This document shows positions 138 to 15,928 of a stretch of DNA of 37,719 nt, piece after piece. The stretch's first letter is position 1, and each line of letters begins with the position of its first letter. Origin of the DNA: a virus; IMG/VR virus record IMGVR_UViG_3300036978_000587, positions 1-37,719 of that record, one strand, 5' to 3'. The position numbers were made by a program, and so were the translations under genes. Under the pieces are notes generated by a model. The model had not been told where the DNA came from. It worked only from the letters and a program-made list of their open reading frames with translations, and ran no database searches.

Positions 138-249
138 AAACAGATGGTGCCACGGTGCAGAGAACGCACCAGATTGACCGATCAACGGACAGCACGCGGC
201 GGCACGCGGTATCGGGGTCGGCCTGGGGGTTGTGGTAGTAGCAGTTCAT
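100..249 (-). CDS. Small Cys-containing protein, last gene of the left arm (49 aa)
   Basis: ATG at 247-249 overlaps the TGA of the upstream gene as ATGA, the coupling used repeatedly in this phage. An AGGAG sits 9 nt upstream of the start. The product begins MNCYYHNPQADPDTACRR, has a hydrophobic, Cys-containing middle (SIWCVLCTVAPSVF) and ends YHPF. Its last third is encoded by the left terminal repeat, so the gene runs to the very end of the element. No family is recognised. The good start signal supports translation; the product could also be a by-product of read-through to the end. Confidence 0.5.
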   Translation of the reverse strand: MNCYYHNPQADPDTACRRVLSVDRSIWCVLCTVAPSVFRPFSFVSYHPF

Positions 250-830
250 GGCTGGAACTCCTGTGCGCGGGAGCGCACGGCGGTGCGGAGGCCGTTGGTG
301 GTGATCGGAGTATAGGAGGGGAGCGCGGCGACGCGGGTTTGGAAATTGGCTAGGGTTACGGAATTGCTGACGGCGGATTTGAAGTCTACGATCCAGGCGC
401 GCAGGAGGTTGAGCTGGTCCATGGTGCAGAACGCGACGCCCTTTTCGATCGCTATGGCTTGTTCAAGGTCAGACGCCATTTCGGCCCAGAGCACGGCGTT
501 GCTGGAGTTGATGGCGGCTTGGTTGGCGGCTGCATTCGTGGCCGCGATGTAGGCGGCGGCTGCTGCGGCGGCTGCGTCGGCGGCTTCCTGTGCATCTTGC
601 GCGGACCTCTGGGCGGCGGTGAGCGCTACGATTGCGCCGTTGGTATAGCGCAAGTACTTGACCGGCGTGCCTGCGAAAACAGCGGCAGCGGCTCCCGGCG
701 TCTGGAGTGGTGAGCGAAAAAAATACACTTGCCCCAGGGTGTTTGTGTTAGCGCCCCAAAAGAAGAAGTCTCCGGCCTGTGCTACAGTGGTGACGATGGT
801 CAGTGCGAGGAATGCGATACTGCGTTTCAT
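246..830 (-). CDS. Secreted-style Ala-rich protein in the tail-fibre cluster (194 aa)
   Basis: The N-terminus reads as a Sec signal peptide: MKRSIAFLALTIVTTVAQAG, with charged n-region, hydrophobic core and AQA-type cleavage site near residue 19. Residues 75-105 are almost pure Ala with Gln/Asp/Glu, probably helical or coiled coil. The remainder is mixed, with TNG/TNA motifs shared with the neighbouring fibre genes. The start overlaps the stop of the Gly-rich gene upstream (ATGA). Position after the fibre genes suggests a fibre accessory, chaperone or tip protein. A surface protein expressed by the lysogen is the alternative. No family is recognised. Confidence 0.75.
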   Translation of the reverse strand: MKRSIAFLALTIVTTVAQAGDFFFWGANTNTLGQVYFFRSPLQTPGAAAAVFAGTPVKYLRYTNGAIVALTAAQRSAQDAQEAADAAAAAAAAYIAATNAAANQAAINSSNAVLWAEMASDLEQAIAIEKGVAFCTMDQLNLLRAWIVDFKSAVSNSVTLANFQTRVAALPSYTPITTNGLRTAVRSRAQEFQP

Positions 831-1786
831 GGTCGGCTGCTCCCTGCTTTGATTGTGATGCCGCTGAGGTTCAGGAGTTGGTTTAGGTTAAGAAGGTCGG
901 AACGATTTATCGTGGATGCGACGCTGCCGCCCGCGACATACCGAACAATCACGATGCCGCTGCCGCCTGCTCGGCTGACACCACCAGCGACGCCGTATAC
1001 TCCGCCAGCGCCCCCGCCGCCACCGCCTGTATTCGGAGCGCCCACGGTAGACGCGGCATACCCAGTTTGCCCAGAGACGTTGGCCTCGCCGTCTCCACCA
1101 CCGCCCAAACCTCCTACGCCTCGCACGACGGCGCTTTTGTTCGTCGCGTATTCGGCCCCACCACCACCACCTCCACCGTAATACGTGCTAACCCCCGAAA
1201 TACTCGACGCATAACCTATACCGCCATTGCCGCCCGTGTTTGCCGCTGCATTTGTTCCGACTCCGCCTGCACCACCGCCGCCGCCGCCAGCGCGACGCTG
1301 AAACGTGTTGTTAGCGGCACCTCCGGCGTAACTATTAGTCACGTTAAAAATGATGTTAGATCCTGCTCCACCAGCGCTAGCACTACCACTACCAACAACG
1401 CCTTTGGCCCCGCCACCAGCGATGATGCTTCCCATCTGGGAAACGCCCCCGTTGAAGAATGCGGGACCTCCGCCGCCGACAGTCACACTGTAAGCACCAG
1501 AGTCCATGGAGAGGATATTCGCCACGACTTGCCCGCCACCACCGCCGCCCGCGCCTGCATCGCAGTTGCCGCCACCGCCACCGCCGCCGACGACCAGGTA
1601 CTCCACATTTCCGCCGCTGGTCACCGTGAATGTAAGCGTACCGCTGTTCGTGAAAATGTGCGCCTGCCAGTTCGTTCCGCCCAGCGTGTAGTTGGTCACG
1701 GTGCCGCCCGTGGCAGACACAGCAACGGCCTCGCGCGCGGTCAGGCACGCGAGCGCAAGGGCGAGTATGGAGGTGAGTTTGCGCAT
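827..1786 (-). CDS. Gly-rich fibre or adhesin-like protein with signal peptide (319 aa)
   Basis: A likely Sec signal (MRKLTSILALALACLTAREA) is followed by a short beta-rich head (residues about 25-68) leading into VEYLVVGGGGGGG. Long poly-Gly stretches spaced by NTGGNGG, AGSN and YGGGG blocks fill most of residues 68-285. The motif YLVVGGGGGGG followed by glycine runs ending GSGIVIVRYV is the signature of the glycine-rich domain found in many phage tail fibres and adhesins, where stacked polyglycine helices form the receptor-binding tip (known for the S16-type adhesin). It follows the long fibre by 2 nt. The export signal is unusual for a virion protein. Confidence 0.75.
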   Translation of the reverse strand: MRKLTSILALALACLTAREAVAVSATGGTVTNYTLGGTNWQAHIFTNSGTLTFTVTSGGNVEYLVVGGGGGGGNCDAGAGGGGGGQVVANILSMDSGAYSVTVGGGGPAFFNGGVSQMGSIIAGGGAKGVVGSGSASAGGAGSNIIFNVTNSYAGGAANNTFQRRAGGGGGGAGGVGTNAAANTGGNGGIGYASSISGVSTYYGGGGGGGAEYATNKSAVVRGVGGLGGGGDGEANVSGQTGYAASTVGAPNTGGGGGGAGGVYGVAGGVSRAGGSGIVIVRYVAGGSVASTINRSDLLNLNQLLNLSGITIKAGSSRP

Positions 1787-1788
1787 GG

Positions 1789-4700
1789 CTAATTGCCGAA
1801 CTTGCGGACCTTGGTGATTTTGGTGATCGTGTTGGTGCCAACGGTGTTGAACGCGACGCTATAGTACAGGTTGCTGGTGCCGTCGGATGAGGCGTAGACG
1901 AATTGACCAACGGCGTTGATGAGACTGATTTTTGTGCCGTTGGCAGACCATGCGAATTTGTTGGTGCTGCACGGTCCACTACAATTTGCGCGGCCCCAAT
2001 ACAACGTCGTTGCACTATTAGACACGCAGAACTTGGCCTCGTAGTTGACGCCATCAGTAATCATGTAGCGGTAGCCGGGGATGACTCCAGAGGCATCGGC
2101 GATGACATTGGACGTTGCGCCGACGACGCTGGCGACTGTAAGCGGTGCGGCCCACCAAAGTCGATTTGTCCACTCGGAGTGGAGCATGTTTTCGGCGAGG
2201 CGGGCTGGGGAGTCAAAAAGCTGCAATGAACTGCGGAAAGAGCGTGCGCCCTCATTGGTATTGGATAGCCAGGCCTCGATCTTGTCTATGTAGCAGACGC
2301 TGGACGGCAAGCCAGATAGAGTGTAGTCGCCGGAGTTGGTGCAGGTGAATGAGTTGGTGAGCATGACGGATAGGCGCATGCCGGAAAGGACGCCGGTGAC
2401 GATGTTGGTGGCCTGATCGAAAGTCGGGCCAGCGCCTGCTGCCGTGGTGAACGTGGGGTTGGTATCTAGCGCCTTTGTAGTGCCGTCGATTGTGATCGTG
2501 CGGTTGGTGGGGACTGCGCCGACTTGCGCGGCGGTGATGCCGGTGAGGGAGGAGCCGGAACCGTTCACAGTTCCTCGTAGATTTACTGTACCCGTCGGCC
2601 TACCGAGATAGAGATTGGTCGTGTTTCCGTTTATCACGATGTTGTCGTTTGTTGAACTATATCCGGTCCCTGGATCAGCGGAATACGAATCAATAAACAA
2701 CCAGTATTTTCCTGTCGCATTACGACCTGCATAGCGGCCTAAGTATGTTGAATTTGAAGAAACAGAACCGCTTCCAGGCCCCCACCCGCCATAATAATTT
2801 TCATTACCTGTGGAAGCACTTCCCGACCACCACCCGCCAAAATAATTATCATTCCCGTTTGCAGAATTACCAGCCGCGAGTCCTACGTAAATATTTTTGT
2901 TTCCGGCCGCCCCACTGCCTGCGTCCCAACCCAGATACACGTTTTCATCTCCAGATGCGCCTGGGCCAGATGCATAACCAGCGTATATATTTCTAGTGCC
3001 AGAGGCATTCAACCCTGTGTCATATCCCAAGTAGATATTCTGCACACCAGACGCATTAATGCCTGCTTCGTAACCCAAGGCGATGCAGTAGGTCTTATTA
3101 TCGCCACTTGCTCCATATCCGGCCATTAAATTTGCATTACTATCGCTAGCAAGTCTAATATTGCCAGAGAGAGTAACATTATTTGTTGCAGTACCACCAA
3201 CCGTAACGACCTGTTGTAGCGTTGGTGTGTTCGTCAGACCGCCAGCCGCCGCGATGCCTGCCGCCGTGTTGCTGACAGCGCCGATATCTGCGGCAACGAC
3301 GGAAACCGTCGCAGTGAAGTTGACTACGACGCCGGTCTTGCTGTTCACCGATCCGGCAAAGAGGATGTTGCTGATGCCGCTGCCTGCGCCGCCGGACACG
3401 GTAACATTGCTACCGGGGCCGACCACGACATTGTTGATGGTGAAGCAGTTGTTTGTCATGCCGCCGGCCGCCGCGATGCCTGCGGAGGTGTTGGACACAG
3501 CGCCGACCTGCGCGGCGGTGATGCCGGTGAGGGAGGAGCCGGAACCGCCGTTAGTAACGACGTTCCCGCCAATGATGTTGCCAGTCACCGTCAGATTGCT
3601 GGCGATGATTGCGTTACCAATAACGTGTAAGCGTTCGTCGGGGGCAATTGTGCCGATGCCGATATTGCTGTCTAATATTGTCAGCTTTGTGCCTCCCGCA
3701 GTTTTTAGCAACAAAGTACCGCCCTGAGCATTTAAAGTGTTGTGCGTTAGTGTGGAATAATTTGCAGCGTCGTACTCGACCTTTACCTGAGGTTCATTGG
3801 TCGACAGAATGTGCAACTTACACACTGGATTTGTCTTGCCGATGCCGACGTTGCCGCTCCCCAATATTCTCAGTTTTTCCGAAAAAGAAGATCCTAAATT
3901 CCAAAAAGATATATCAACATCCTTGCCAGCGTTAGAAAGTGGAAAACGTATAGCTGCATAATTTGTGGTAGTTTCACTGTTCATTACATCTAACGAGGGA
4001 ACCTCTGAACCAATATTATAACCGGCGTGCCATTGTTGAAGCGAACGAGTTTCACCAGGATTTAATACGCCTACATCAATGGATAATTTTGCGGTGGGGT
4101 TAGTGGTGCCGATGCCGACGTCGCCTGCGCTGGTGATCCTGACTTTTTCCGTTGCTGCACCAACAGTCGTTACGGTCGAAAATCGCAATGCGCTTTTTGC
4201 ATCGCCATCTACATCGGATTCCTTGATCCCTGAGATGCTTCCCAGAGAACCGTAACCTCCTGCGGAGGTCACCTTGCCAGCAAAAGTTAAAATCGTAGTT
4301 GGTGAATCGTTATAGGCACTGGTGTCCCAAATGCTTATACTGGGATGTGCCGATTGAACTTGTAATGTATCTGAAGGGTTCTTCGTCCCGATTCCGACCT
4401 TGCCATCCGCCGCCACGTACAAGCCACCGTTGTGGTTGTTGGTCAATCCGCCAGCCGCCGCGATGCCTGCCGCCGTGTTGCTGACTGCCGACAGGTCAGC
4501 AGCGACCAGCGTGACTGTCGAAACGATGTTGCTGCCGCTGCCACCAAGCACGCCGGTCTTGCCGTTGACGATGACATTACTGATGCCACCGCCACCACCA
4601 CCTGCCCCGGACGCGGCAATCGTAACGGTACTGCCATTGGCAAGCGTCACGGGGGAGCTGCCGCCGTTGAGCGTAACGTTTAGACCAGGGGCGAGGATTG

Positions 4701-5835
4701 GTCCGCCGTTGGTAAGTCCGCCTTTGGCCGCGATGAACGCGGCGTTGATTCCATTCGTGGCTGCTGCCGCTGCGCCTGCTGCGTCGAATGCCGCCGCGTT
4801 AGTGAGTGCGGCAAGGTAGCGGGCATCGTTGGTCGCTACACAGGAGTTTGTGATCGAGGCCGTAACTAAGCCCTGAGTGTTTGCGGCAGTTAGAAAACTG
4901 GCGTGACTACCGACCACCCAATCGTTCGTCTGTGCCGGCTGCACCGCCGTTGCGCCCGCAGCCGCCCCGGTCGTCAGCGTGTTCGAGGCCGCTCGCCACG
5001 TCGGGTCAACAGCGTTCGTGCGGGCTGTCTCTGTCTGCGCCGTGGTTGTCAATCCCGCATGGCTTCCGACTTCCCATCCGTTCGTATCAGTCCGCGCAAC
5101 GTCCCGCGCCTTGGTTGCAATGTCTAGCAGGTTCGTGCGCGTGTCCGCATACGCCCGGTCGCCGTGAGGGTCAGACGCGATGATATGCGCGGCGTTCGTC
5201 AGGCCGGCCACGATGCTGGCAATGTTGGTCACGGTGGCCTCGCTGGTGCCTGATCCGGCGCCGCCCATGTCGGTGCCCCAGGCGACTCCGCCGGCGCCGT
5301 CGGGCTTGAGGACAAGATCGGTGTCGGTGGTGCCGGTCTTGAGGGCGAGGATGTTGGTGGGGACGAGGGTGGCGGGGAACCAGGATGGAGGTGCGGCGCC
5401 GTCGGAAGTCCAGCCGGGAGATGCGCGCATGGTGATCGTGCCACGGGCGCGGTACATGGCGCCGCCGGGATCGGAGACGCCAACGAAATACTGGTACTGG
5501 AGTGCGCCGGCGTCGCAGGAGGGGGTCCAGGTGACGGTGACACGGCCAGTCTCAGTTGTGCTGACGGTGCCGTTGGTGCCCCAGGGGGCGGTGGCAAAAT
5601 TGTTGGTGGACCAGTAGAGCACGGCCGTGGCGTTGGTCGCAATGGAATACGCGAGGCCGTCGCGCATAAACCGCGGGGATAGCGCGACAGTCTCGCCGCG
5701 GTAGATGTCTAGGTTTTTGGCGGCTGGGGCGGGCAAGGAAACGTCCCAGGAGACGGGCACCTGAGCGCCTATATATAAGGAAAGAGAAAAGAAGGCCAGA
5801 ATCGCCAGGCGAAGGGTGGTGTGTGGTGCGTTCAT
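1789..5835 (-). CDS. Long tail fibre with beta-repeat shaft and N-terminal signal-like segment (1348 aa)
   Basis: The first 24 residues contain a hydrophobic stretch (LAILAFFSLSLYIGA). A beta-sandwich-like region follows (residues about 28-130, with IYRGETVAL and VTVTWTPSC), resembling the N-terminal domains of phage baseplate and fibre proteins. The shaft holds four VGIGTTNP-type repeats (KVGIGTKNP, DVGIGTTNP, NVGIGKTNP, NIGIGTIAP) and several AAGGLTN/GSSLTGITAAQVGAV repeats. It also holds a run of Y.G..AG.NA.G..NIY.G units near residues 900-1040, like the head repeats of trimeric fibres. The C-terminus is globular with a Cys cluster. No S74 autoprotease motif is visible. It probably forms the trimeric host-binding fibre. 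Confidence 0.85.
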   Translation of the reverse strand: MNAPHTTLRLAILAFFSLSLYIGAQVPVSWDVSLPAPAAKNLDIYRGETVALSPRFMRDGLAYSIATNATAVLYWSTNNFATAPWGTNGTVSTTETGRVTVTWTPSCDAGALQYQYFVGVSDPGGAMYRARGTITMRASPGWTSDGAAPPSWFPATLVPTNILALKTGTTDTDLVLKPDGAGGVAWGTDMGGAGSGTSEATVTNIASIVAGLTNAAHIIASDPHGDRAYADTRTNLLDIATKARDVARTDTNGWEVGSHAGLTTTAQTETARTNAVDPTWRAASNTLTTGAAAGATAVQPAQTNDWVVGSHASFLTAANTQGLVTASITNSCVATNDARYLAALTNAAAFDAAGAAAAATNGINAAFIAAKGGLTNGGPILAPGLNVTLNGGSSPVTLANGSTVTIAASGAGGGGGGISNVIVNGKTGVLGGSGSNIVSTVTLVAADLSAVSNTAAGIAAAGGLTNNHNGGLYVAADGKVGIGTKNPSDTLQVQSAHPSISIWDTSAYNDSPTTILTFAGKVTSAGGYGSLGSISGIKESDVDGDAKSALRFSTVTTVGAATEKVRITSAGDVGIGTTNPTAKLSIDVGVLNPGETRSLQQWHAGYNIGSEVPSLDVMNSETTTNYAAIRFPLSNAGKDVDISFWNLGSSFSEKLRILGSGNVGIGKTNPVCKLHILSTNEPQVKVEYDAANYSTLTHNTLNAQGGTLLLKTAGGTKLTILDSNIGIGTIAPDERLHVIGNAIIASNLTVTGNIIGGNVVTNGGSGSSLTGITAAQVGAVSNTSAGIAAAGGMTNNCFTINNVVVGPGSNVTVSGGAGSGISNILFAGSVNSKTGVVVNFTATVSVVAADIGAVSNTAAGIAAAGGLTNTPTLQQVVTVGGTATNNVTLSGNIRLASDSNANLMAGYGASGDNKTYCIALGYEAGINASGVQNIYLGYDTGLNASGTRNIYAGYASGPGASGDENVYLGWDAGSGAAGNKNIYVGLAAGNSANGNDNYFGGWWSGSASTGNENYYGGWGPGSGSVSSNSTYLGRYAGRNATGKYWLFIDSYSADPGTGYSSTNDNIVINGNTTNLYLGRPTGTVNLRGTVNGSGSSLTGITAAQVGAVPTNRTITIDGTTKALDTNPTFTTAAGAGPTFDQATNIVTGVLSGMRLSVMLTNSFTCTNSGDYTLSGLPSSVCYIDKIEAWLSNTNEGARSFRSSLQLFDSPARLAENMLHSEWTNRLWWAAPLTVASVVGATSNVIADASGVIPGYRYMITDGVNYEAKFCVSNSATTLYWGRANCSGPCSTNKFAWSANGTKISLINAVGQFVYASSDGTSNLYYSVAFNTVGTNTITKITKVRKFGN
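2516..2563. repeat. 48-bp direct repeat inside the fibre gene (partner 3500-3547)
   Basis: The two copies differ at one base. They encode the GSGSSLTGITAAQVGAV module, in the same frame. Near-identity at the DNA level points to recent in-gene duplication or conversion and makes unequal recombination of the shaft possible. Confidence 0.85.
3239..3276. repeat. 38-bp perfect direct repeat inside the fibre gene (partner 4448-4485)
   Basis: The copies are identical and encode the VSNTAAGIAAAGGLTN module. A diverged third copy lies near 3461-3501. These repeats mark module borders in the fibre shaft. Confidence 0.8.
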
Positions 5836-5893
5836 GGTGATAGCCTATATGGTGGAGGGTTGGAGCGCAGAGCGAAAGGCAAGGTCTGAAAGG

Positions 5894-7636
5894 CTAGCGA
5901 ACGGGGGCGTGCTGCGTGTAGTTGGTGAGGGATTGGAACACGGGGCGATACGTAACGCTCATCGTTCCCAACGGTTCCCACCCAGAATATGAGGTGCCGA
6001 TATACCATCCGTAGAATTTGTAGTGATCCGCTTCTACCGGCACATCTGCCAGCCACCCGGCGCAGGTGGTTTCAAAGTCGTTGGTGATCCATGCCGCTGT
6101 GGGCAACGTGGGGGACGTAGCGGTGATCCAATTGCTCGTGACCCATTCGCCGGAACTGCCAAAGTTTTTGGGGCCAATGCAATTCATGATGCCATTCGTG
6201 AATGGAGGATCGGCAATGGTCGGAAATGGTCCTGCGTAGGTTTCCATAATGCCGCCGTATGCTTCGCGTTTTATGCCCACGGTTTCGTAAATATATCCGT
6301 TGGTGAGCGCAAACGTGCTGCCGGATACGTGAGCCACGTCCACGACTGCGCGCCCGTTGATGTAGTACCCGACAAAACCGCGACTCGTTACGCCAACGCC
6401 GTTGTGGTGCATGTAGTAAAAAAGTGTAGCGCGTGGAGACTTTCCGTATGCTGTCGTGGACCATCCCGCCGGGGGCGTCCCCCAAGTGCCAACATCCTCA
6501 TATTCAATCTTCTTGCATTCGTTGGTATCACCGTTATAAGACTGGTCAGGAATCGCAATCCACTGCATTAGCGACAGTGCGCGCGCCATGTCGTTATAGG
6601 TGTTGGTTGACCAATAAAGTCCCGTCTGGTCGCGCTCAAACGCAAATAGCTTTCGGTCCCATACGGCATTCGTAGACGTGACCGTGTAGAGTTGAGATGT
6701 ACAGGTGACGTTGGTTTGCCACGGCAGATCGGTCGTAATGACGTTGGTGATGGCGCTATTGGTAGTAACGTGCAAGACGCCGTTGGATAATGTGACGTAG
6801 TTTGTCCAACAAAAGGCATCGTTTTTGAGCAGTTGTATGGCAGTATTCGTTGCGCCTGAAAAATCGCCATCCCATGTGCCTGTCGTCATAAAAGTGTTGG
6901 AGGGGGTGATCCAATCTATGCTTGGGTCGGCATATTCGCCCGGATGCCCCGCTAATGCGTCGCGGATGGATTGTGGGTATCGGTAGGAAGCGTTGGGGAA
7001 AAAGCCGATAGTGTTGGTGTCGGTGTGCGCTGGCGAATTGGTGAGGTATAGCAGATCGGTACGCGGAATGCGCGTCAGCGTGATCACTCCGCCATCTGGC
7101 ACGTCATACGTGATGCCGGTGTATACGTTTGCGACCGTGTAGGCTGGGGCTATGTACCATGTTGTAAATTCGCCATATGACGAAAAAAGCCATCCTGCAT
7201 AGTTTGCCGATAAATCGTCGCCGTTTTCTGATGCTATGACATTCGTGAGTACTGCGGTACCGTAACCACCTAAAAACGGCATCACGAGGCGCGTGCCGTT
7301 GGTCCAGGCGCAATACAGTGTCTCGCCGCGCACGATGTAATAATTCGTGCCGCCCCAATTGGTCGTGAGTGATGAGGTGACCGCAAAGGCATCGGCAGGG
7401 ACGCCAGAGGTCATGACAAGGGACACATTTGCCGCATAGGCCTTGGTAAAAGCAGTGTTGGTGCGGCCCATGGCGTAGTGACGCTCCAGGATCGCGTGCA
7501 TGATCTCGGCTTCGTCTTGTGGCCGCGGGATGTCTACCGGGGCTGGGGTGCGCGACCACCAGAGGACGCCACCTGCCACAGCCAGGGCGCTGACGACCTT
7601 GGCGGCGGTGGTACCGATGGATTTGTAGTCGTACAT
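5894..7636 (-). CDS. Large tail-region protein with N-terminal membrane segment (580 aa)
   Basis: The start at 7636 is two bases past the upstream stop. Residues 9-27 form a hydrophobic segment (TTAAKVVSALAVAGGVLWW), then a Pro-rich link. The rest is a long beta-rich Asn/Thr/Tyr/Trp-rich region (TNYYIVRG, WTNYVTLSNG, TNVITTDLPW) with no family that I recognise. It lies between small tail genes and the long fibre, so a baseplate hub, tip or adhesin role is likely. The membrane anchor or uncleaved signal is odd for a virion component. Confidence 0.75.
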   Translation of the reverse strand: MYDYKSIGTTAAKVVSALAVAGGVLWWSRTPAPVDIPRPQDEAEIMHAILERHYAMGRTNTAFTKAYAANVSLVMTSGVPADAFAVTSSLTTNWGGTNYYIVRGETLYCAWTNGTRLVMPFLGGYGTAVLTNVIASENGDDLSANYAGWLFSSYGEFTTWYIAPAYTVANVYTGITYDVPDGGVITLTRIPRTDLLYLTNSPAHTDTNTIGFFPNASYRYPQSIRDALAGHPGEYADPSIDWITPSNTFMTTGTWDGDFSGATNTAIQLLKNDAFCWTNYVTLSNGVLHVTTNSAITNVITTDLPWQTNVTCTSQLYTVTSTNAVWDRKLFAFERDQTGLYWSTNTYNDMARALSLMQWIAIPDQSYNGDTNECKKIEYEDVGTWGTPPAGWSTTAYGKSPRATLFYYMHHNGVGVTSRGFVGYYINGRAVVDVAHVSGSTFALTNGYIYETVGIKREAYGGIMETYAGPFPTIADPPFTNGIMNCIGPKNFGSSGEWVTSNWITATSPTLPTAAWITNDFETTCAGWLADVPVEADHYKFYGWYIGTSYSGWEPLGTMSVTYRPVFQSLTNYTQHAPVR

Positions 7637-7638
7637 GG

Positions 7639-8211
7639 CTATGCGGGGGCGAAAACGGGCAGCACGATGATGCCGCATTGCTGGTAGTCGGTGAGCGTGG
7701 GCAGGTAGTTGGTGACGGAAAACACAGCGATAACGCCATAAATATAAGAGGAATCGTCCATGGGGTCGTTGGTCTGGGGCGCGGTGAGGATGGAGAGTCC
7801 GGCCGGTGACCAGCGCCAGACGATCTTCTGGCCGGCGCCGTTGCCGGCAAAGGTGACCTCCGTATCGCTGCAGGTGTAGTAGAGGGATGCGCCTTGCGGA
7901 TCGCCGTAGCGGCGAGCCTTGGCGTTGTAGACGGTGATTTTATTGGCGCCAGTGCGTGCCAGGCCAAAGGTGTATTGGGTGCCCCAGGGGTAGCTTGAGC
8001 TTGATCCGCCGACGCTGGAGCCAGGGGGCGGAGATTCGTCGCTGGTGCCGTCGTTGATGATGCGCCAGGGTGTGCCGTCGGTGTTTTTCTCGATGCGCAG
8101 GCCAACGCCGACGATGTCTTCGAGTATGCTGGCGACGCGATTGTGGTGCGTGGTGTTGCAGACTTTGGCAACTGGATCGCCACGCTTGAAACGCCAGAGA
8201 TATCCGCGCAT
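7639..8211 (-). CDS. Tail-region protein of unknown function (190 aa)
   Basis: ATG at 8211 has AGGAG 9 nt upstream. The N-terminal half (MRGYLWRFKRGDPVAKVCNT, then an IEDIVGVGLRIEKN-like stretch) is followed by a low-complexity linker (PPPGSSVGGSSSS). A beta-rich C-terminal domain contains Trp and Cys residues (YYTCSDTEVTFAG, KIVWRWSPAG) and ends in a hydrophobic VLPVFAPA. Its position downstream of the tape measure fits a minor tail or baseplate protein. The linker suggests two domains. No family is recognised. Confidence 0.7.
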   Translation of the reverse strand: MRGYLWRFKRGDPVAKVCNTTHHNRVASILEDIVGVGLRIEKNTDGTPWRIINDGTSDESPPPGSSVGGSSSSYPWGTQYTFGLARTGANKITVYNAKARRYGDPQGASLYYTCSDTEVTFAGNGAGQKIVWRWSPAGLSILTAPQTNDPMDDSSYIYGVIAVFSVTNYLPTLTDYQQCGIIVLPVFAPA

Positions 8212-8222
8212 GGCAATAACTC

Positions 8223-8516
8223 CTAGGCCCAGGTGCCGAAAACCTTGTCAAAGACCTCGACATACCAGGCATCGGCGTCGTTTTGGCGTTTGGCGCAGAC
8301 GGTGCGTTGGGTTCCAGATGGGCACGCAGCTTGCAGCTCGGTGACGCAGGTCTGGGCGGCGGCAAAGGTCATGTTGACGTAGCGGTACTTTTCTTCGGTG
8401 TCGGTGCGCGCATACGTGGTCCAGGTGCTGCCAGACGCCACCCATGTCGTACCGGGATAGGAGTTGTATTCGTCGGTGATCTTGTTGTCGGGGCCGTATG
8501 AGGTGAGCCAGGACAT
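8223..8516 (-). CDS. Small tail-region protein (97 aa)
   Basis: It lies 10 nt downstream of the tape-measure gene. Composition is Thr/Trp/Tyr-rich at the N-terminus (TTWVASGSTWTTYARTDTEEKYRYV). The middle helix carries two Cys residues (TCVTELQAACPSG) and the C-terminus is DAWYVEVFDKVFGTWA. A minor tail role is likely from position only. The ribosome-binding site is weak, which suggests coupling to the gene upstream. Confidence 0.7.
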   Translation of the reverse strand: MSWLTSYGPDNKITDEYNSYPGTTWVASGSTWTTYARTDTEEKYRYVNMTFAAAQTCVTELQAACPSGTQRTVCAKRQNDADAWYVEVFDKVFGTWA

Positions 8517-8526
8517 GGGGGGGCCT

Positions 8527-10173
8527 CTATTTGGCGGTCAGCAGGTCGGGAAGATCGTCAGTGTTGGCGGCGATCTTGTCGAGAGCGGCTTGTTTTAGGC
8601 GGTTTACTTCGTCAAGTTTACGTTGCGATTCCTGGACCTTTGCGTCCTGTGCATCGCGTTTTTTTTGTGCATCAGCCTGGGCTTCTTTCCATTCTTTGCG
8701 CTGTTTCATGAAGTCGGAGTCGGTGCGGTTAAGTTGGCCACCTTTTTCAACCACGTTTTTCAGCCGTTGCTCGCGACGCTCTTGGGCCATGGACAGTGCG
8801 TGCGGATCAATGGCGGCTTGCTCGGCGGCGGAGAGCTTTTTGCCTTCCAGCACCTTGTTTGCGAGTCGGGACATGGCTTTGTCGGAAAAGCCTTGGGCGT
8901 CTTTCAAGTCAAAGCCGCGACCGACTTCGTTGCGAGCCTTCATGGCATCCATAGCCTGGCGCTCGCGCGCTTGCCCGGCATCCAAGGCCAGACTGGGTGC
9001 ATGGCCAGCGCGATTCTCCACGCCGATCCGGGCGAGCGCCGCCTGATAAGCCTTGCCTTTGCCGGCATCAGCCATTTCTCCGGCCGTGGCGCGCAATTCG
9101 GGGTGTTTGGATGCGAAACGGTCGAAACCACCAGGTGCCTGCAGGTCCTGGAGTTCTTTGTCCATGAGGCCAAACATCTCGTGACCTTGCTTGGCCTTAG
9201 TTTGCAAATTGCGCAGTTCCTCAATTTTGCCGACGGCGCGGTTTTGCTTTTGCTGCGCTTCCTCCAAATAGGATGCCTTTTTGGCCTTGGAAACTTCTTC
9301 CGCGTCCACATCAGCCTTGGTGCGCAGAAGGGGGTCGCGGGGGATAAGTGCTTTGTCCACGGCGGCGGCCAAACCTTCACCGCCTGCCAAACGGCCAAGT
9401 AAACCGGCGGCTTCTTTAATTGCATTGATAACAGGCATCAAACCTTTAGTCATCCAAAGTCCGAAGGTTTCCAAGATTTCATTGGCTTCGTTTTTGAGTT
9501 GCGTCATACCACCTGCACCACTATTCGCTAAATCTGCTATTCCACCTTTGTATCTCGCGAGCGCCGCCTCGATGACATTCCACATCTCGGCGGTGCTGGC
9601 ACCTTGGCGTTCGAGGTCTTTTAATTGCTTGATGGCGTCTGGTCCAAGCACGCCGAGTTGCTGCAACTGCATCATGGCGCGATCTATGGGCATTCCTTGC
9701 GCGAGTAGCCCAAAAGCTCTACCAACCGCAAAGCTCACAGCATCCATGGTGTTGCCTGTGGCGGCGGCCACATCGCCAAGCATATTTAATGCGGCTTTAC
9801 CACTGAGCGCGCCTTCCGTAAGACGCTCCAGATTCATGGATGCTTTGCCAACATCCGCCATACCAAACTGCCCTTTACCTTCCTCGTTTTTCCATGATGA
9901 AAGCTCGCGCATGCGTTTGGCGGCTGCTTCTGTACTGCCGAGCAGGGTTTTGAGTTGTGCTTGTACACTTTGAAATTCAAAAGCTTCTGCAAACGCCTTT
10001 TGGATAAGAGCAGCCGCTCCGGTAATGACGCCGAAGCCAACGGCTACCTTTCCAACCGCGCTCAGGAAGCCGGATGCCAGGTTCTTGCCCATGCCTGAAA
10101 TGGTAGCTTGGGCGGAGGAAAGGCCTCGTCCAGTCTCGTCTTTGGCGCGGATGATGTATTCAAGGATGTTCAT
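8527..10173 (-). CDS. Tail tape-measure protein (548 aa)
   Basis: The N-terminus (MNILEYIIRAKDETGRGLS) with repeated SSAQATISGMGK is typical of tape-measure openings. A hydrophobic Gly/Ala segment follows at about 35-62 (FLSAVGKVAVGFGVITGAAALI). Then come long helical stretches, a second hydrophobic part (GLMPVINAIKEAAGLLG) and a Lys/Glu/Gln-rich coiled C-terminal half. The ATG overlaps the TGA of the upstream gene as ATGA, the usual tail-chaperone/tape-measure junction. From the usual 1.5 angstrom per residue rule, 548 aa implies a tail of roughly 80 nm. No lysozyme domain is visible. Confidence 0.9.
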   Translation of the reverse strand: MNILEYIIRAKDETGRGLSSAQATISGMGKNLASGFLSAVGKVAVGFGVITGAAALIQKAFAEAFEFQSVQAQLKTLLGSTEAAAKRMRELSSWKNEEGKGQFGMADVGKASMNLERLTEGALSGKAALNMLGDVAAATGNTMDAVSFAVGRAFGLLAQGMPIDRAMMQLQQLGVLGPDAIKQLKDLERQGASTAEMWNVIEAALARYKGGIADLANSGAGGMTQLKNEANEILETFGLWMTKGLMPVINAIKEAAGLLGRLAGGEGLAAAVDKALIPRDPLLRTKADVDAEEVSKAKKASYLEEAQQKQNRAVGKIEELRNLQTKAKQGHEMFGLMDKELQDLQAPGGFDRFASKHPELRATAGEMADAGKGKAYQAALARIGVENRAGHAPSLALDAGQARERQAMDAMKARNEVGRGFDLKDAQGFSDKAMSRLANKVLEGKKLSAAEQAAIDPHALSMAQERREQRLKNVVEKGGQLNRTDSDFMKQRKEWKEAQADAQKKRDAQDAKVQESQRKLDEVNRLKQAALDKIAANTDDLPDLLTAK

Positions 10174-10991
10174 GGCGTGGGGGCTGATTTGCTGGCGCTC
10201 GCGGACGCGGATGGGGTGGCGCGAGTTTTAATGATGGCGGTGATTTCGTTGCGCAAAGCGATAATGGCCTTGGTTTGCGCGGTGTTGTCAGGCTCAGATC
10301 CAAGCTGCGTGCGAGCCATATCGATGCGCTTGGCGCGGATCCAGGCGCGCAGGACGATCTGGCGGCTTTCATGGAGCCAATAGTCGGGAGCTGTGCCGGT
10401 CGAGAGGCTCAGATCGTGGGCGATCGCTTCCCAATCCACAGGCGTGTTGCGGGCTGGCAATTGCTTGTCGCAGAACGGGCGCAAGATCTCTTCGAGTTTT
10501 GGCAAGGTTCCGCCGCAAAGATCAATCAAGCGGCGAGACAACATGACGATTTCGTCAGCGCGGTCGTCGGATTCGTCCGCGAGCGACTCCAGGATGGCAG
10601 CGTCGAGTTGGGCGCGGTTGACGGTGAGCGTGCGATACCATGCCTTGACGGCGGCTTGGGCAGTGTCGCGTAAGAGCGGCAGTGCGCCCGGCGTGCGGCC
10701 ATGCGCCATGGCAAACGCCAGGCTGGCAGTGAGCCAGGTGTCATTGCCTACCCACCAATTGCATGCCAATTCTTTCCACCACAGGCTTCCCGTGATCGTC
10801 AGCCGAAACAGCACGGCATTGCCACACTTGACGGGGCAGCCAAGCAGCGCCAGGCGTTCGCCGGGTTCGGGATCTTCGACGCGGGCGCCCAGTTCGTGCA
10901 GGCGGACAATCTCGTCGGGCGTCGGCTCGATCGAGTGTTCGCCACGAAGTTCCGCGATGGCGGCAAGAGCGGTTTGGCAAATACCGGGCAT
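10170..10991 (-). CDS. Probable tail assembly chaperone-position protein (273 aa)
   Basis: A perfect AAGGAG lies 4 nt before ATG 10991 and directly abuts the 8-copy heptamer repeat. The protein is mostly helical, has Trp-rich patches (GSLWWKELACNWWVGN) and ends in a low-complexity Ala/Ser/Lys tail. Its place between tube and tape measure, overlapping the latter by ATGA, matches tail assembly chaperones. No slippery frameshift was searched for exhaustively. The function is inferred from synteny alone. Confidence 0.7.
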   Translation of the reverse strand: MPGICQTALAAIAELRGEHSIEPTPDEIVRLHELGARVEDPEPGERLALLGCPVKCGNAVLFRLTITGSLWWKELACNWWVGNDTWLTASLAFAMAHGRTPGALPLLRDTAQAAVKAWYRTLTVNRAQLDAAILESLADESDDRADEIVMLSRRLIDLCGGTLPKLEEILRPFCDKQLPARNTPVDWEAIAHDLSLSTGTAPDYWLHESRQIVLRAWIRAKRIDMARTQLGSEPDNTAQTKAIIALRNEITAIIKTRATPSASASASKSAPTP

Positions 10992-11001
10992 CGGACTCCT
11001 T

Positions 11002-11057
11002 ATTGAAGATTGAAGATTGAAGATTGAAGATTGAAGATTGAAGATTGAAGATTGAAG
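11002..11057. repeat. Eight perfect tandem copies of ATTGAAG
   Basis: The 7-bp unit is repeated eight times without change and borders the Shine-Dalgarno of the gene at 10170..10991. On the mRNA the tract reads CTTCAAT repeated. Such a heptamer array is prone to slippage and does not alter reading frames here because it is intergenic. Confidence 0.98.
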
Positions 11058-11084
11058 ATTGGAAGAACGGAAAACAAACGCGGG

Positions 11085-11789
11085 CTATACGGTGCGGGCG
11101 ATGTGGTGCTCCAGGGAGATGGTTTGAGTATCGGCGGCGGTGTTGGCTTTGGCGGTGCCGTCGGAGAGTTTGGCCCAGGTGGCCCCGACAGTGACGCTGG
11201 CGGGAATGCCAGTAAGGCCGATGTCGAGCTTTTCGACGCCGTCGCGGTTTTCGCCAGCCAGGTGGTCGCCAGTTTCGCCGTCTTCGTCGAGGTGCGTGCA
11301 GGAGAGCGAGTACTTCATGCTCTTGATGCCGATGGTGGAGTCGTCGGTGCCGAGCTTGAAAATGTCGGCAGGTGTGGGCGTGGCGGTGTCGGTGAGCGCA
11401 CGCGGGATGCCAAACTGAGCAGGCAGTTTGACTGTGGCGGTAAACTCGTTTTCAGCGGTGTGGGCCTTGACGGCGTGGTTGTGGCAGGTGATGGTGATCT
11501 TGGGCCATGATGTCGGGGAGTACTCGATTTCGACAGAATCTATGTGCAGGCTTGCCACCACGTCGCCAACCAATGGCGGAGTGATGTAACCAGAGGCGGC
11601 TTGATGCTCGTAAACAATCGTGCGCTTGGTATCGGTGCCGTATGTAACGTTGATGCCTTCGTCGCCGTTGGCCTTAAGACCTTGGGCGCGTTTCAGCGTG
11701 GTGACGGGCATGTCGGACTGCGGAATGAATGATCCGCCGAGTGAAAGCACGTCGGTGGGGGAGAAGAAACCGAGGTTTGTGTCTGCCAT
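11085..11789 (-). CDS. Probable major tail tube protein (234 aa)
   Basis: It starts with AAGGAG 8 nt upstream. The protein is beta-rich, starting MADTNLGFFSPTDVLSLGGS, with conserved-looking tube features: an acidic DSVEIEYSPTSWPKITITCHNH stretch and repeated Thr/Val strands. No sheath gene sits beside it. It follows the gene at 11835 (tail completion position) and precedes the chaperone and tape measure, the usual place for a siphoviral tube protein. The call rests on position and secondary-structure impression, not on a recognised motif. Confidence 0.65.
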   Translation of the reverse strand: MADTNLGFFSPTDVLSLGGSFIPQSDMPVTTLKRAQGLKANGDEGINVTYGTDTKRTIVYEHQAASGYITPPLVGDVVASLHIDSVEIEYSPTSWPKITITCHNHAVKAHTAENEFTATVKLPAQFGIPRALTDTATPTPADIFKLGTDDSTIGIKSMKYSLSCTHLDEDGETGDHLAGENRDGVEKLDIGLTGIPASVTVGATWAKLSDGTAKANTAADTQTISLEHHIARTV

Positions 11790-11834
11790 GGTGAACTCCT
11801 TGTGTGGTCAGGGGGATTGGGAAAACTAACGCTT

Positions 11835-12323
11835 TTATACGGGCTGTGCTGTGGTGAGAACGGTGCCGACAAGGTTGAAGGTGAGGCGAAAAGCGGCGAG
11901 GCGCAGGCCGTTGGGTATCTCGAACGGTTCGTCGCCCTGGTAGAGAAAACGCGGCGTGGTGGTGCCTTGCGATGTGTTGGTCAGGTTGATCTCGGCAACT
12001 TTCTGCGTGAGGGTATCGAGCAGATCGGTGAGTGCCTCGCGGTCGCCAATAGACTGGTAGACGGCGGCGCCGGTGTTGGCGTCGAGGCCCATGCCGTTGC
12101 CAAGGACGATCTCGAAGCGCATTTGCGCCAGGGGGTTGCCTTGGGGAGAGTCGAGCAACGCGCGGCCGCCGTAGCCGATCACGCAGATCAGGCCGTGGGG
12201 TCCGGAGGCGATCAGCTCGTAAGCGTGCCAGGGATCTTTGGCAATGGTGCAGACGCCGCCGTTTTCAGTGATCCAGGGTTCGATGGTTTCGCGCAGGACG
12301 GCGATGATGTCGGAAAGTTTCAT
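11835..12323 (-). CDS. Head-tail joining / tail terminator-position protein (162 aa)
   Basis: The start is taken at MKLSDIIAVLRETIEPW (12323), with GGAG upstream; a slightly longer frame exists. The protein is mixed alpha/beta with an N-terminal helix, then ICVIGYGGRALLDS and a C-terminal strand pair (GLRLAAFRLTFNLVGTVL). Genes here, right after the gp36-like adaptor and before the tube, usually encode the tail terminator or Mu gp37-like protein. It is not identified by motif. Confidence 0.65.
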   Translation of the reverse strand: MKLSDIIAVLRETIEPWITENGGVCTIAKDPWHAYELIASGPHGLICVIGYGGRALLDSPQGNPLAQMRFEIVLGNGMGLDANTGAAVYQSIGDREALTDLLDTLTQKVAEINLTNTSQGTTTPRFLYQGDEPFEIPNGLRLAAFRLTFNLVGTVLTTAQPV

Positions 12324-12384
12324 GGGGGTCTCCAAAGTCAATGGTCAATGGTCATTGGTCATTGGGGGGAGGCGGGGAAGTAAA

Positions 12385-12840
12385 TCAGTTTAAGAGTCGC
12401 GGTGAGGCGGTCACGTCGGGGTCGGTCTCGTCGCTGCTGCAGGGGACCAGTCGGGAAGCTTCGGCAATGATGACGCCAGGGGCGTGGGCTTTAGGCGTGT
12501 CGGATGTGAGCGGGTCGAGGCCGCGGCCAATGCGGTCGAGCTTGAGGCGGATGGCAGAGGCCAGGGCGGAGAATGGATTGGCATCGGAAGCGACGCCACG
12601 GCGGTGGTAGAGGGCCTCGGCGCGCAGAATAAGTGCGGCTGAGAAAACTACAGACGGGATCGTGCCAGTGAAGGGGACGCTGTAGCGCTGCCCCAGGAAG
12701 CCGTCTATCTCGCCATCTACGGACGTTTCCCAGGCCGCCTGCACGTCGGCGTCAATCTGGCCGTCGCGGTTATCGTCGAGCGCCTGGAGGACAATGGCGT
12801 GCGGTACGCGGGCCTCGACTTGTGTGATGGTGCAATACAT
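12385..12840 (-). CDS. gp36-like head completion protein (DUF1320 family, 151 aa)
   Basis: MYCTITQVEARVPHAIVLQ, with its Asp-rich DDNRDGQIDADV and a helical C-terminal part (SAALILRAEALYHRRG), matches the DUF1320 family of Mu gp36. That family connects capsid and tail in Mu-like phages. It sits just after the major capsid gene, as in Mu. There is no Shine-Dalgarno before the ATG; the 40 nt upstream are a TTCCGTC-type simple repeat. Translation may depend on that A/U-rich unstructured tract. Confidence 0.8.
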   Translation of the reverse strand: MYCTITQVEARVPHAIVLQALDDNRDGQIDADVQAAWETSVDGEIDGFLGQRYSVPFTGTIPSVVFSAALILRAEALYHRRGVASDANPFSALASAIRLKLDRIGRGLDPLTSDTPKAHAPGVIIAEASRLVPCSSDETDPDVTASPRLLN

Positions 12841-12945
12841 GACTGACGGAAGAACGGAAAGACGGAAGAGAACTGGGGAAGATGGCCGACGGAATGGAAA
12901 ACGAAACAAAACCATTCCGCCGGCCGGGGGGGTGCGGGAGACAGA

Positions 12946-13836
12946 TCAACCAGCGGAAACGATGCCGGCGTAGATCAGGTGGGGCATGGTGGGGGCTGCG
13001 GCGGCCCGTCCGGTGGACAGGACGTCAAAGTACCCGGTGCGCTCAACTTGCTCGACGCGGGCGTCCATGAAGGGCGAGGCCTCTTCGCGGATCTGGCGGC
13101 AGATCGCCTTGATGGGCTTGGATCGGTCCACCAAGAACCAGTAGTTGGCGTAGTCTCCAGCCAACTCGCCGACCTCAACCGGGATGACCTTCTTGTAGTT
13201 GGGGTTGGCGGAGAACTGAGCGTCGGTATACTGGCTGTCGATCAGCGAGGCCACGGTGCTGCGCAGAGCCGCGCCATGTATTAGGTGCGTCCAGCGCGGG
13301 CGAATCTGCGTGCCGTCGGCGAACTTCCAGGCGCCGGTGGTCGTATAGGCCGTGTTGAACACAGCGGCCGTCAGGGCCGTGGTGACCAGATTGCCGACGG
13401 TGTTCTTGCCGTACTTGTGGTCCGTGGCGAAGATTAATTTGCCATCGAAGCACTTCGGGTTGCCCGTGAGGATTTCGATCACAAGCTGATACTTCATCTC
13501 CTGCCAGCTCAGGCCGGACATGCGCACCGTGTCGCCGAAGGCGCCGAAGGTGTCGTCCTTGATCGCATTGCGGGGCAGGCGATCTGTCTTTTCAAACGTC
13601 CTGTGGTCTACCTGGTACTTGTTGAGCAGCACGTCGTTGAAGACGCGGTCGCCGACCCACTCGCGGAATCCGGCGGCGTTCTGTGCCCAGAAGTACATAT
13701 TGGACGCGCCAGCGCCGGGGACATCCCAGAACAGGATGTCGGCCAGGTCTACAGGCGGTGTCCATTGCATGCCCTGCTTCCAGCTTGCGCTGAGGTTGCG
13801 GGCGAGTTCGGCGAGGGTGGCATTGGTGAGTTCCAT
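12946..13836 (-). CDS. T: Major capsid protein, Mu gpT family (296 aa)
   Basis: The start at MELTNATLAELARNLSASWK is chosen because a GGAG lies 7 nt upstream. The longer frame reads through a spacer of TTGGTTCT repeats. Family hallmarks are present: an N-terminal helix followed by WKQGMQW, a central DRLPRNAIKDDTFGAFGD region, DHKYGKNTVGNL, and a C-terminal strand pair ending in the VERTGYFDVLSTGRAAA motif. Mu gpT is the main head subunit. It is encoded downstream of the I/Z protease-scaffold gene, with one decoration-like gene between, as expected for capsid genes. Confidence 0.9.
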   Translation of the reverse strand: MELTNATLAELARNLSASWKQGMQWTPPVDLADILFWDVPGAGASNMYFWAQNAAGFREWVGDRVFNDVLLNKYQVDHRTFEKTDRLPRNAIKDDTFGAFGDTVRMSGLSWQEMKYQLVIEILTGNPKCFDGKLIFATDHKYGKNTVGNLVTTALTAAVFNTAYTTTGAWKFADGTQIRPRWTHLIHGAALRSTVASLIDSQYTDAQFSANPNYKKVIPVEVGELAGDYANYWFLVDRSKPIKAICRQIREEASPFMDARVEQVERTGYFDVLSTGRAAAAPTMPHLIYAGIVSAG

Positions 13837-13937
13837 GTGAGGCTCCAGGGGTGTGAGGTTTGGAAAGTTCTTGGTGCTTGGTTCTTGGTTCTTGGTTGCA
13901 AAAATGGCGCGTGGGGTTCCTACCACGCGCCTGGTGG

Positions 13938-14777
13938 TTACGGTGTGCGCGTGATGGCGGTGATGATGCCGCCGGTTACCACGATGATGTTGGTCGTGGT
14001 CAGCGAGTTGGTATAGGTGGCGGAGACGCCTGTGCCTGAGCCGCAGAGGTAACCGCTGGCCTTGCCAGTGCCGGTGACTACCAGCGTGCCGGCGACAGTC
14101 GCGTTGTTCGTGACTGCGACAGTCGTACCGCCCAGCGTAGTTGTGCCGGTGGTCGTGAGTGCGCCGGCAGTCGTGGTGCCGGTAACGCCGAGCGTTCCAG
14201 CGACCGTGCTATTGCCGGTGGCGTCGAACGTGCCGCCGACGCTGGCATTGCCGCTGACCGCGAGCGTGGACAGTGATCCCGCAAGCACCTTGCTCAAGCT
14301 CGTGGTGTCTACCCAGACGCCATCAGAGTCTACTTCGACGATGATCCCCACAGGGATGTCGTATGTGGCGCTGGCGGCCTTCTGGACGGTGTGGTCGTCT
14401 TCGATGTAGCAGACCTGTCCGACGTCGGCAGCGGTATAGCTGTCGCCGTTATCCCAGCGGAACACGCCGCGTGTGGCCGGAACTTTGCGCGTGGCGCTGT
14501 ATTTGCTGGCGTCAACGCCGCCGTTGTCCGACGTCTGGCGGACGCAGCCCACCACCATCATACTTGCGGTGGAGTCCGTGGCCGGGACAATCTTGCCGGT
14601 GGCCGTGCTGATCGCGGCGATGGCGCCGCCGTACACCACGTTGGACGCCTGCAGGTAGCCAGTGGCTACGCCAGCGCGAAACGGAGTGCTGACCGCTTCC
14701 GTGAGGGCAGCGGCGTGGATGTAGATGGCCGCGAGCGTGCAGACGGCCAGGAGGGTCATGAGTTTGCGAAGGTTCAC
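13938..14777 (-). CDS. Capsid decoration-like protein with signal peptide and beta-repeat tail (279 aa)
   Basis: A GTG start at 14777 has AAGGA 9 nt upstream. Residues 1-23 are a Sec-like signal (MTLLAVCTLAAIYIHAAA). Residues about 24-160 resemble capsid decoration/cement proteins (VVYGGAIAAISTATGKIVPA, YIEDDHTVQKAA, VGIIVEVDSDGVWVDT) and lie at the decoration position between protease and capsid genes. Residues 165-250 are a Thr/Gly repeat (AGTLGVTGTTTAGALTTTG) typical of beta-helical spikes. This looks like a cement protein fused to a spike. The signal peptide is unexplained for a head protein. Confidence 0.75.
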   Translation of the reverse strand: MNLRKLMTLLAVCTLAAIYIHAAALTEAVSTPFRAGVATGYLQASNVVYGGAIAAISTATGKIVPATDSTASMMVVGCVRQTSDNGGVDASKYSATRKVPATRGVFRWDNGDSYTAADVGQVCYIEDDHTVQKAASATYDIPVGIIVEVDSDGVWVDTTSLSKVLAGSLSTLAVSGNASVGGTFDATGNSTVAGTLGVTGTTTAGALTTTGTTTLGGTTVAVTNNATVAGTLVVTGTGKASGYLCGSGTGVSATYTNSLTTTNIIVVTGGIITAITRTP

Positions 14778-14860: not shown

Positions 14861-15394
14861 TTACACGCCGAGCTTAGTCAGATCCTCCGGCTTGCGGCCG
14901 AACATGGCAGCGACTTTGGCAGTGATGCCCGGATCGCCGGCGGCGGCGCGGTTGTCGGCGCTGAACGCCTCGACGTTGTGCGTGCGCTGTTCGAGCGGCA
15001 CTGTGGCAGGTGTGTTCTTGGCGACTTCGCGCAGCGTGGCGAGGTCCACAGACTTGATCGCTTCGGCGCTAAACGGCAGCACCTTGCCTTCGCGAGCAGC
15101 CTGTGCGATCACGTCGGCGCGTTCCTGCGCGACGCGTTCGGCGCTGAACGTGACGATTACGCCTTCGGCCTTTTCCAGGCGCTTGGCAATCTCTTCGATG
15201 CCAGACTTGTGCGCGTCGCCCGTGGCGCTGAAGGTGACAATCTTTGACTGGAGATCTTTGATTTCCGCCGACATGGCGGAGATGCTGCCGGCGCTGGCCA
15301 GCAACGTGCCGATGTTTTTGGCCGCGCCGAGCATCTGATCATCCGAGGCGGTATCGCCCAAGCCGAGTAGCGCGAGCAGTACTTTGTGTTCCAT
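14861..15394 (-). CDS. Z: Scaffold protein from an in-frame internal start within the protease gene (177 aa)
   Basis: ATG at 15394 (codon 179 of the protease gene) has a strong AAGGA about 9 nt upstream, in frame. The product starts MEHKVLLALLGLGDTAS and is helical, Ala/Glu/Lys-rich. It corresponds to the Mu gpZ scaffold nested in I and to lambda Nu3 in C. Both products share one stop. The strong internal ribosome-binding site is seen directly; the scaffold role is known for the family. Confidence 0.8.
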   Translation of the reverse strand: MEHKVLLALLGLGDTASDDQMLGAAKNIGTLLASAGSISAMSAEIKDLQSKIVTFSATGDAHKSGIEEIAKRLEKAEGVIVTFSAERVAQERADVIAQAAREGKVLPFSAEAIKSVDLATLREVAKNTPATVPLEQRTHNVEAFSADNRAAAGDPGITAKVAAMFGRKPEDLTKLGV

Positions 15395-15928
15395 GGTGAG
15401 ACTTCCTTGGTTGGTTGTGGATTCGTCGGCCTCGTCGGCAATATCAACGCTAAACGCTCGCAGACCCGCAATGGCTCCGGCGCGACAGAGCGCCGTGCTG
15501 TGCATCCCCTGCACGGTGCGCGTGCCAGGGATGAAGCAGATCGCGGGGCTGAGGTCGCAGAAGTTCGCGACGGATTTGATTCCGCCGGGTGTCCACTCCA
15601 GGGCGTCCAGATACAGGCCTTCGCCAGGCACCAGCGTCGGGACGCCAAAGGCCGCGACTTCGCGAGGCTCCGTGGTTTCCTTGTGCGCGGGTGTGCCGGC
15701 CACGGTGTTATGCTCGTAATCCAGCGCCACGCGATCCCAACCACGCGCTTTTTGCGTGGCGGAGAAAACGCGGACGGATGAATCGTCGAGCGTAACGGGG
15801 CCGTCAATGGCCTGACTGGTGCCCCAGGGGAGCACGAGTTTGCGGACCGGAAGCGGATCGCCGCTCAGCCGCGCGGGGATCCGCACGGAGAAGCAGTGAA
15901 CGTTGATTTTGCTGGCTGGTCCTTTCAT
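14861..15928 (-). CDS. I: Head maturation protease/scaffold, Mu gpI family (355 aa)
   Basis: The N-terminal half matches the Mu I protease family: WDRVALDYEHNTV, EVAAFGVPTLVPGEGLYLDALEWTPGG and a C-terminal ALCRAGAIAGLRAFS. The protease cleaves scaffold during head assembly. Residues 179-355 form the helical scaffold part, made separately from an internal start. The C-terminus (AAMFGRKPEDLTKLGV) repeats the end of the scaffold. It lies between G and the decoration gene. Confidence 0.9.
   Translation of the reverse strand: MKGPASKINVHCFSVRIPARLSGDPLPVRKLVLPWGTSQAIDGPVTLDDSSVRVFSATQKARGWDRVALDYEHNTVAGTPAHKETTEPREVAAFGVPTLVPGEGLYLDALEWTPGGIKSVANFCDLSPAICFIPGTRTVQGMHSTALCRAGAIAGLRAFSVDIADEADESTTNQGSLTMEHKVLLALLGLGDTASDDQMLGAAKNIGTLLASAGSISAMSAEIKDLQSKIVTFSATGDAHKSGIEEIAKRLEKAEGVIVTFSAERVAQERADVIAQAAREGKVLPFSAEAIKSVDLATLREVAKNTPATVPLEQRTHNVEAFSADNRAAAGDPGITAKVAAMFGRKPEDLTKLGV

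Follow-up and report, generated by a model that had tools for sequence, protein, structure and literature searches.

It is assumed that tailed phages make their structural proteins, and put them together, in the cytoplasm. Export of virion proteins by Sec signals is familiar from the filamentous phages, where it applies to pIII and pVIII. In phage lambda, Lom is encoded between the tail spike and the tail fibres (PMC12309495). A review of capsid decoration proteins mentions neither signal peptides nor the periplasm (PMC7602432), and in the open-access literature we found no description of Sec signals on capsid or fibre proteins of tailed phages, an absence that does not amount to proof. Here we analyse a viral DNA of 37,719 nucleotides (the window), in which a predicted capsid decoration protein and proteins of the tail end appear to carry such signals. 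The comparison with its relatives suggests that the particles of this phage and of at least 14 relatives are finished outside the cytoplasm.

Results

The window, a 37.7-kb viral contig, is a Mu-like prophage. Its products include a MuF homologue, the protease I, a Gp36 neck protein and T, the major head protein, and match the Mu-like head and neck families PF10124, PF10123, PF04233 and PF07030 of Pfam. A terminase with a weak Pfam match and a gene in the portal position are also present. By analogy, the role of transposase A may fall to 23188-25122, which has HTH/transposase-type Pfam matches at its N-terminus only, and a B-type role to 22164-23561, an AAA_22 ATPase in Pfam. At the right end (36973-37719), a host gene fragment shares 57-61% identity with proteins of the class Kiritimatiellia, and the prophage host is probably a member of Kiritimatiellia; this class is given because two of the genomes in the same class search, those of L087 and L088, are a Verrucomicrobia MAG and Kiritimatiellaeota bacterium B1221. 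A search of the phage collection gave no close DNA relatives of the window. Scanning viral contigs with T and the terminase as single proteins returned no relative either, whereas an alignment query recovered relatives. Relatives from all scans are designated below by L numbers.

The original prediction held that five genes of the window (246, 827, 1789, 5894 and 13938, named by their lowest coordinate) start with a signal or an anchor. All five N-termini are present, that of 5894 as an anchor from a corrected start at 7636, and the broader claim of Sec-type leaders on virion-type proteins holds, with Sec/signal peptidase I signals predicted for the other four. The leaders of 246 (MKRSIAFLALTIVTTVAQA/GDFF, with the slash at the predicted cleavage point), 827 (MRKLTSILALALACLTAREAVA/VSAT), 1789 (MNAPHTTLRLAILAFFSLSLYIGA/QVPVSW) and 13938 (MNLRKLMTLLAVCTLAAIYIHA/AALTEAV) combine a basic n-region, a hydrophobic core and a small-residue (-3/-1) cleavage motif. 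Scored by our own heuristic, which was calibrated on eight Escherichia coli Sec signals, these four leaders fall in the range of E. coli OmpA, MalE, PhoA and DsbA. As listed, the open reading frame of 5894 begins at 7678, inside the upstream gene 7639-8211, and its likely start is M15 at 7636, directly behind that gene; from there the N-terminus (MYDYKSIGTTAAKVVSALAVAGGVLWWSRTP) has a single anchor and no AxA site and, on this start, is likely to be a membrane anchor and not a cleavable signal. The features are compiled in Table 1.

Table 1. Predicted leader-bearing and anchored structural features of the window, with leaderless ones as controls
Feature	Coordinates	Strand	Description
Predicted capsid decoration protein, 279 aa	13938..14777	-	Sec leader, gpD-like domain (aa ~23-158) and, over aa 159-279, a fibre-like C-terminus rich in T/N/G
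Predicted Sec leader of the decoration protein	14712..14777	-	22 codons, MNLRKLMTLLAVCTLAAIYIHA; missing from homologues
Large baseplate/tail-fibre-like protein, 1348 aa	1789..5835	-	Leader 5764-5835, then conserved (V/I)P..W ... YRGETV domain
Glycine-rich tail-end protein, 319 aa	827..1786	-	Leader 1721-1786; PF21722 Gly_rich_2, E 6e-17; phrog_2295, E 1e-36
Tail-end protein, 194 aa	246..830	-	Leader 774-830; 4-nt overlap with the stop of 827-1786
Tail-region protein with predicted membrane anchor, 580 aa (start M at 7636)	5894..7636	-	Hydrophobic segment at about aa 8-27
Major head protein gpT	12946..13836	-	No leader; PF10124, E 2.6e-27; M31 of the ORF is the start by alignment
Head maturation protease/scaffold gpI	14861..15928	-	No leader; PF10123, E 3.7e-24
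MuF-like head morphogenesis protein	16638..17546	-	No leader; PF04233, E 5.6e-19
Probable tape-measure protein	8527..10173	-	No N-terminal leader; assigned by position and length only; no Pfam/PHROG match

The family phrog_1731 ('virion structural protein') matches 13938 over aa 23-158 only (E 5e-21), and in tblastn the decoration genes of D3112-type phages align with it from aa 24 at an identity of about 34-36%. Leaderless phage homologues begin with a methionine of their own (M-ALTxxRNTP) at the point where 13938 is predicted to be cleaved. In the window as well as in its relative L184, cleavage would leave AALT, which is the N-terminus of the leaderless homologues once their methionine has been removed. 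The position of 13938 between protease I and T matches that in five reference phages (Fc22, RC1, Mushuvirus, B23 and a Klebsiella Mu-like phage). For the core of 13938, modelled by AF2 with a pLDDT of about 90, Foldseek returned as best neighbours the decoration proteins of Pam3, T1, lambda (gpD) and TW1, together with phi29 gp8.5, a head-fibre base. The best of these matches have probabilities of 0.97-1.00, but even the lowest E value, 3.5e-3, is weak, for which a disordered C-terminus is the probable reason. As modelled, the mature domain keeps the capsid-decoration fold. The PHROG match, the starts of the homologues, the gene position and the fold therefore argue for a capsid decoration protein that has gained a leader of 22 residues, and in the alignments this leader is an exact N-terminal addition to the conserved domain.

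Several scans traced the leader beyond the window. A set of 78 decoration matches, covering the window, reference phages and 80 viral loci, contains no leader besides that of the window. When 387 genomes of the phylum were scanned with T, about 40 prophages emerged, several of them with decoration leaders, and a scan of the class, the order and viral contigs added the nearest relatives (T identity 40-50%) and further leaders. The decoration leader is thus seen in the window and 14 relatives, that is, in 15 of the 142 distinct domains compared. All 15 fall into two clades of Verrucomicrobiota-type Mu-like phages, with none among homologues from other hosts. On the T tree, one group consists of the window, L184, L185, L186 and L266, the other of L146, L147, L148, L150, L158, L160, L188, L189, L263 and L264, and at least two changes are needed. 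Comparison with close relatives had been proposed as a check on the original prediction, and the leaders are not consistently absent from them: they are present in the nearest relatives L184-L186 (T 44-50% identical) and in L266, L188 and L189, and absent in L187 (T 40%). The leader sequences vary yet retain the signal-peptide pattern, and an acceptable cleavage site lies 0-5 residues ahead of the conserved (A)xRxTP motif in 15 out of 15. The hydrophobic stretch of L155 could be one of the domain's strands, and L155 is not counted among the 15.

A wrong start codon as the origin of the 13938 leader was rejected, as no internal start has a Shine-Dalgarno sequence (SD); translation would begin at a GTG with the SD AAGGA. 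Across the 15 leader sequences, no in-frame internal start near the decoration domain is preceded by a strong SD, and good SDs are located at, or at most two codons from, the leader start. In five close copies the pN/pS ratio is 0.33 for the leader and 0.42 for the mature part, and by this measure the leader is under purifying selection. Since leaders occur on 15/142 distinct decoration domains, all clustered phylogenetically, a chance hydrophobic N-terminus is ruled out for 13938. No second, leaderless decoration copy was found in the window or in six related viral records, several of which are partial.

At the tail end, the mature N-terminus of 1789 is homologous to the sequence behind the leaders in L185 and L189. 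Behind leaders, it is also recognisable in L184 and, at a greater distance, in L146, L148 and L150. Because 1789 has no Pfam or PHROG match, its label as a tail fibre follows from position and composition; the fibre families likewise have no Pfam domain, and BppU offers at most a resemblance. In L184 and L185 a leaderless gene of similar type adjoins the 1789 homologue. Protein 246 has no family match in Pfam or PHROG. The anchor of 5894 and the ..PQDEAE.. region that follows are kept at the same position in L184, L185 and L189, and L272 has a similar anchor; the AF2 model of 5894 (pLDDT 26) offers no usable fold.

Under the same predictor, the share of signals in the region from T to the tape measure is 2/58 in the leader-decoration phages and 1/296 in other phages, and at the tail end it is 18/49 versus 2/160. 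Tail-end signals in other verrucomicrobial prophages amount to 14/148, ordinary lipoproteins included. Counted by phage, all 10 leader-decoration phages with enough flank carry a tail-end or fibre signal, compared with 2 of 22 other verrucomicrobial prophages (Fisher p 1e-6, a value that rests on only two independent contrasts and on tail flags set by hand). The coupling of decoration and tail signals is backed by two independent origins only. Tail-end proteins with signals also occur in another three viral contigs, of which at least some have a head module of another kind, so that the tail trait extends beyond this head lineage. A phage phospholipase was rejected as a shared export partner: a patatin is encoded in the window only and is absent from L184-L189.

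Discussion

Because the leaders are present and conserved, Sec export of the leader-bearing proteins and their cleavage by signal peptidase I are well supported; that the proteins are then stored in the periplasm and join virions at lysis is what we infer beyond this. The explanation that we favour, with a probability of roughly 0.45, is that in this lineage the outermost, host-facing virion parts are exported, cleaved, stored in the periplasm and joined to heads and tails at lysis. More tentative is a full two-compartment assembly, in which DNA-filled heads and tails would form in the cytoplasm, whereas the fibres that decorate the head and the tail adhesins would be exported, undergo processing in the periplasm and become attached to the particle at lysis. 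The decoration (head-fibre) protein and the distal tail and fibre proteins would be made as Sec precursors, cross the inner membrane and lose their leaders to signal peptidase I, and the 5894 protein would remain anchored in the membrane. The cytoplasm would still be the place of DNA packaging and of heads, necks and tubes. The mature decoration and fibre proteins would be held in the periplasm until the inner membrane opens at lysis, and would then bind the finished heads and tails. The envelope assembly envisaged in the original prediction is best recast in these terms, as completion of particles from periplasmic parts at lysis.

Phage heads are smaller than the 340-nm hole of the lambda holin. 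Such holes measure about 340 nm on average (PMC10865782), and decoration proteins attach when assembly is ending or complete, with Dec of phage L binding finished P22 capsids in vitro (PMC7602432). Late decoration binding and holes of this width therefore make a late meeting of heads and tails with periplasmic proteins physically possible. Among the points against the favoured explanation, decoration proteins of other phages can act as capsid cement while DNA is being packaged, a role closed to a periplasmic protein, and the close relative L187 has no leader.

The exported proteins might no longer be virion parts and might instead be secreted or displayed on lysogens or infected cells, acting Lom-like in superinfection block, receptor binding or as adhesins. 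Lambda Lom, a signal-peptide-bearing outer-membrane protein made in lysogeny, provides the precedent (PMC12309495), and the mature parts of the signal-bearing set are rich in T/N/S/G and poor in charge: T/N/S/G make up 38% and charged residues 12%, against 24% and 23% for the non-signal proteins of the same phages. We nevertheless regard this loss of a virion role as unlikely, given that the decoration gene lies between I and T with its decoration fold kept, that no other decoration gene was found, that proteins of the 1789 family open with a conserved domain, which is what an assembly base should have at its N-terminus, and that neither protein resembles an outer-membrane beta-barrel. Surface display by the lysogen, which the original prediction had entertained, is likewise a poor fit for a decoration gene embedded between protease I and the capsid protein T. 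Another reading leaves the leaders uncleaved, as hydrophobic anchors that tie assembling heads or tails to the membrane or insert at entry. The unprocessed anchors of the original prediction do fit 5894, which shares with its relatives a conserved anchor lacking an AxA site. They do not fit the decoration protein: a cleavage motif closes its leader just where the ancestral N-terminus lies. Decoration leaders have n/h/c architecture and acceptable cleavage sites at the N-terminus of the homologues, and a Sec-inserted anchor would leave the domain on the periplasmic side, separated from the heads in the cytoplasm; as a general account, uncleaved leaders are quite improbable.

Passage through the periplasm could also serve mainly for modification by disulfides or O-glycosylation, with joining secondary. 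The mature parts are T/N/S-rich, and there are 6 Cys in the anchored 5894 and 10 in its L184 relative; yet Cys makes up 0.67% of the signal-bearing set, not above the 0.72% of the non-signal proteins, and no glycosyltransferase is linked to the leader genes, so that modification as the main purpose is quite improbable. That wrong starts, chance hydrophobic N-termini or decayed prophages produced the pattern is scarcely credible: two starts in the window (5894 and T) needed correction, but the SDs at the leader start, the purifying selection, the 15 distinct sequences and a near-zero control rate speak against an artefact.

If outer parts do join the particles from the periplasm at lysis, an assembly step would be added outside the inner membrane, and it would be explained how decoration with adhesive fibres could wait until lysis. 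A conserved Sec signal on the decoration protein in two clades, together with the tail-end signals, would contradict the cytoplasm-only assumption for a whole phage group. Gene annotation would be affected as well, because virion genes with such signals would be wrongly classed as coding for host or secreted proteins.

The phrog_1731 proteins of B3/D3112-type phages (such as Pseudomonas phage Fc22, Rhodobacter phage RC1 and Mushuvirus) share with 13938 a homologous domain, the position between I and T and the (A)LTxxRNTP motif. They start at the domain and are leaderless, whereas 13938 adds a predicted Sec signal and a fibre-like C-terminus. The base-domain fold predicted for 13938 resembles that of phi29 gp8.5 and of proteins of the lambda gpD fold, and gp8.5 also has a C-terminal fibre; to our knowledge, no export signal has been reported for these proteins, which are made and bound in the cytoplasm, unlike what the model proposes for 13938. 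Lambda Lom, the product of a signal-peptide gene in a tail operon, as found here, is the nearest precedent in position. However, Lom is an outer-membrane barrel and no virion component, whereas the signals described here are on conserved virion-type proteins. Filamentous coat proteins, finally, assemble at the membrane during extrusion, whereas the phage of the window is tailed, has a dsDNA genome and encodes a terminase, a putative portal and a protease.

Decoration proteins and signal-bearing tail genes

Long C-terminal extensions are frequent in the decoration proteins of this group, occurring in those of the window, L089 (3442-4179), L184, L185, L186, L188 and L189. As these extensions are either fibre-like and TN-rich or collagen-like (GADGAAG), the proteins look like head fibres. 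In the window, a terminator-like hairpin separates the decoration gene from T, the major head protein gene.

Tail proteins with a predicted Sec signal are also encoded by the viral contigs L271, L272 and L273, at least some of which have another head module, comprising a phrog_328 protease and, in L271, a phrog_1005 capsid. In L272, the likely capsid gene is immediately followed by a further small gene whose product bears such a signal (near 3190-3585, MRKFIIILLAFAATFSAQA). L134 and L147, two dissimilar Mu-type prophages of one genome (G118), have in common a signal-bearing fibre gene (..RAVMVDTN..) located between the neck and tail-tube genes, which suggests module exchange.

Gene layout of the prophage

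Features of the window
Feature	Position	Strand	Remark
Decoration gene	13938-14777	-	
Hairpin	13906-13931	-	9 pairs, 8 GC, then ATTTTT
PAPS-reductase/DndC-like ORF (presumed)	27165-27863	-	early-gene region
Patatin-like phospholipase	31599-32426	+	adjoins small membrane-type ORFs and terminase
Terminase and portal-position genes	32913-36862	+	strand opposite to MuF (16638-17546, -)
Host gene fragment	36973-37719	-	at prophage end

The patatin-like phospholipase, which a search of six related viral records did not find there, is possibly an unusual lysis gene. One early-region ORF (SFSTGRDSLATWLAMRD) we take, by eye only, to be PAPS-reductase/DndC-like. The flanking host gene belongs to a large paralogous family (~900 aa) of Kiritimatiellia genomes. 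The terminase and portal-position genes lie at the far end of the phage from the head morphogenesis gene MuF and the remaining head genes, with the transposition genes in between; this split layout, on opposite strands, differs from that of Mu.
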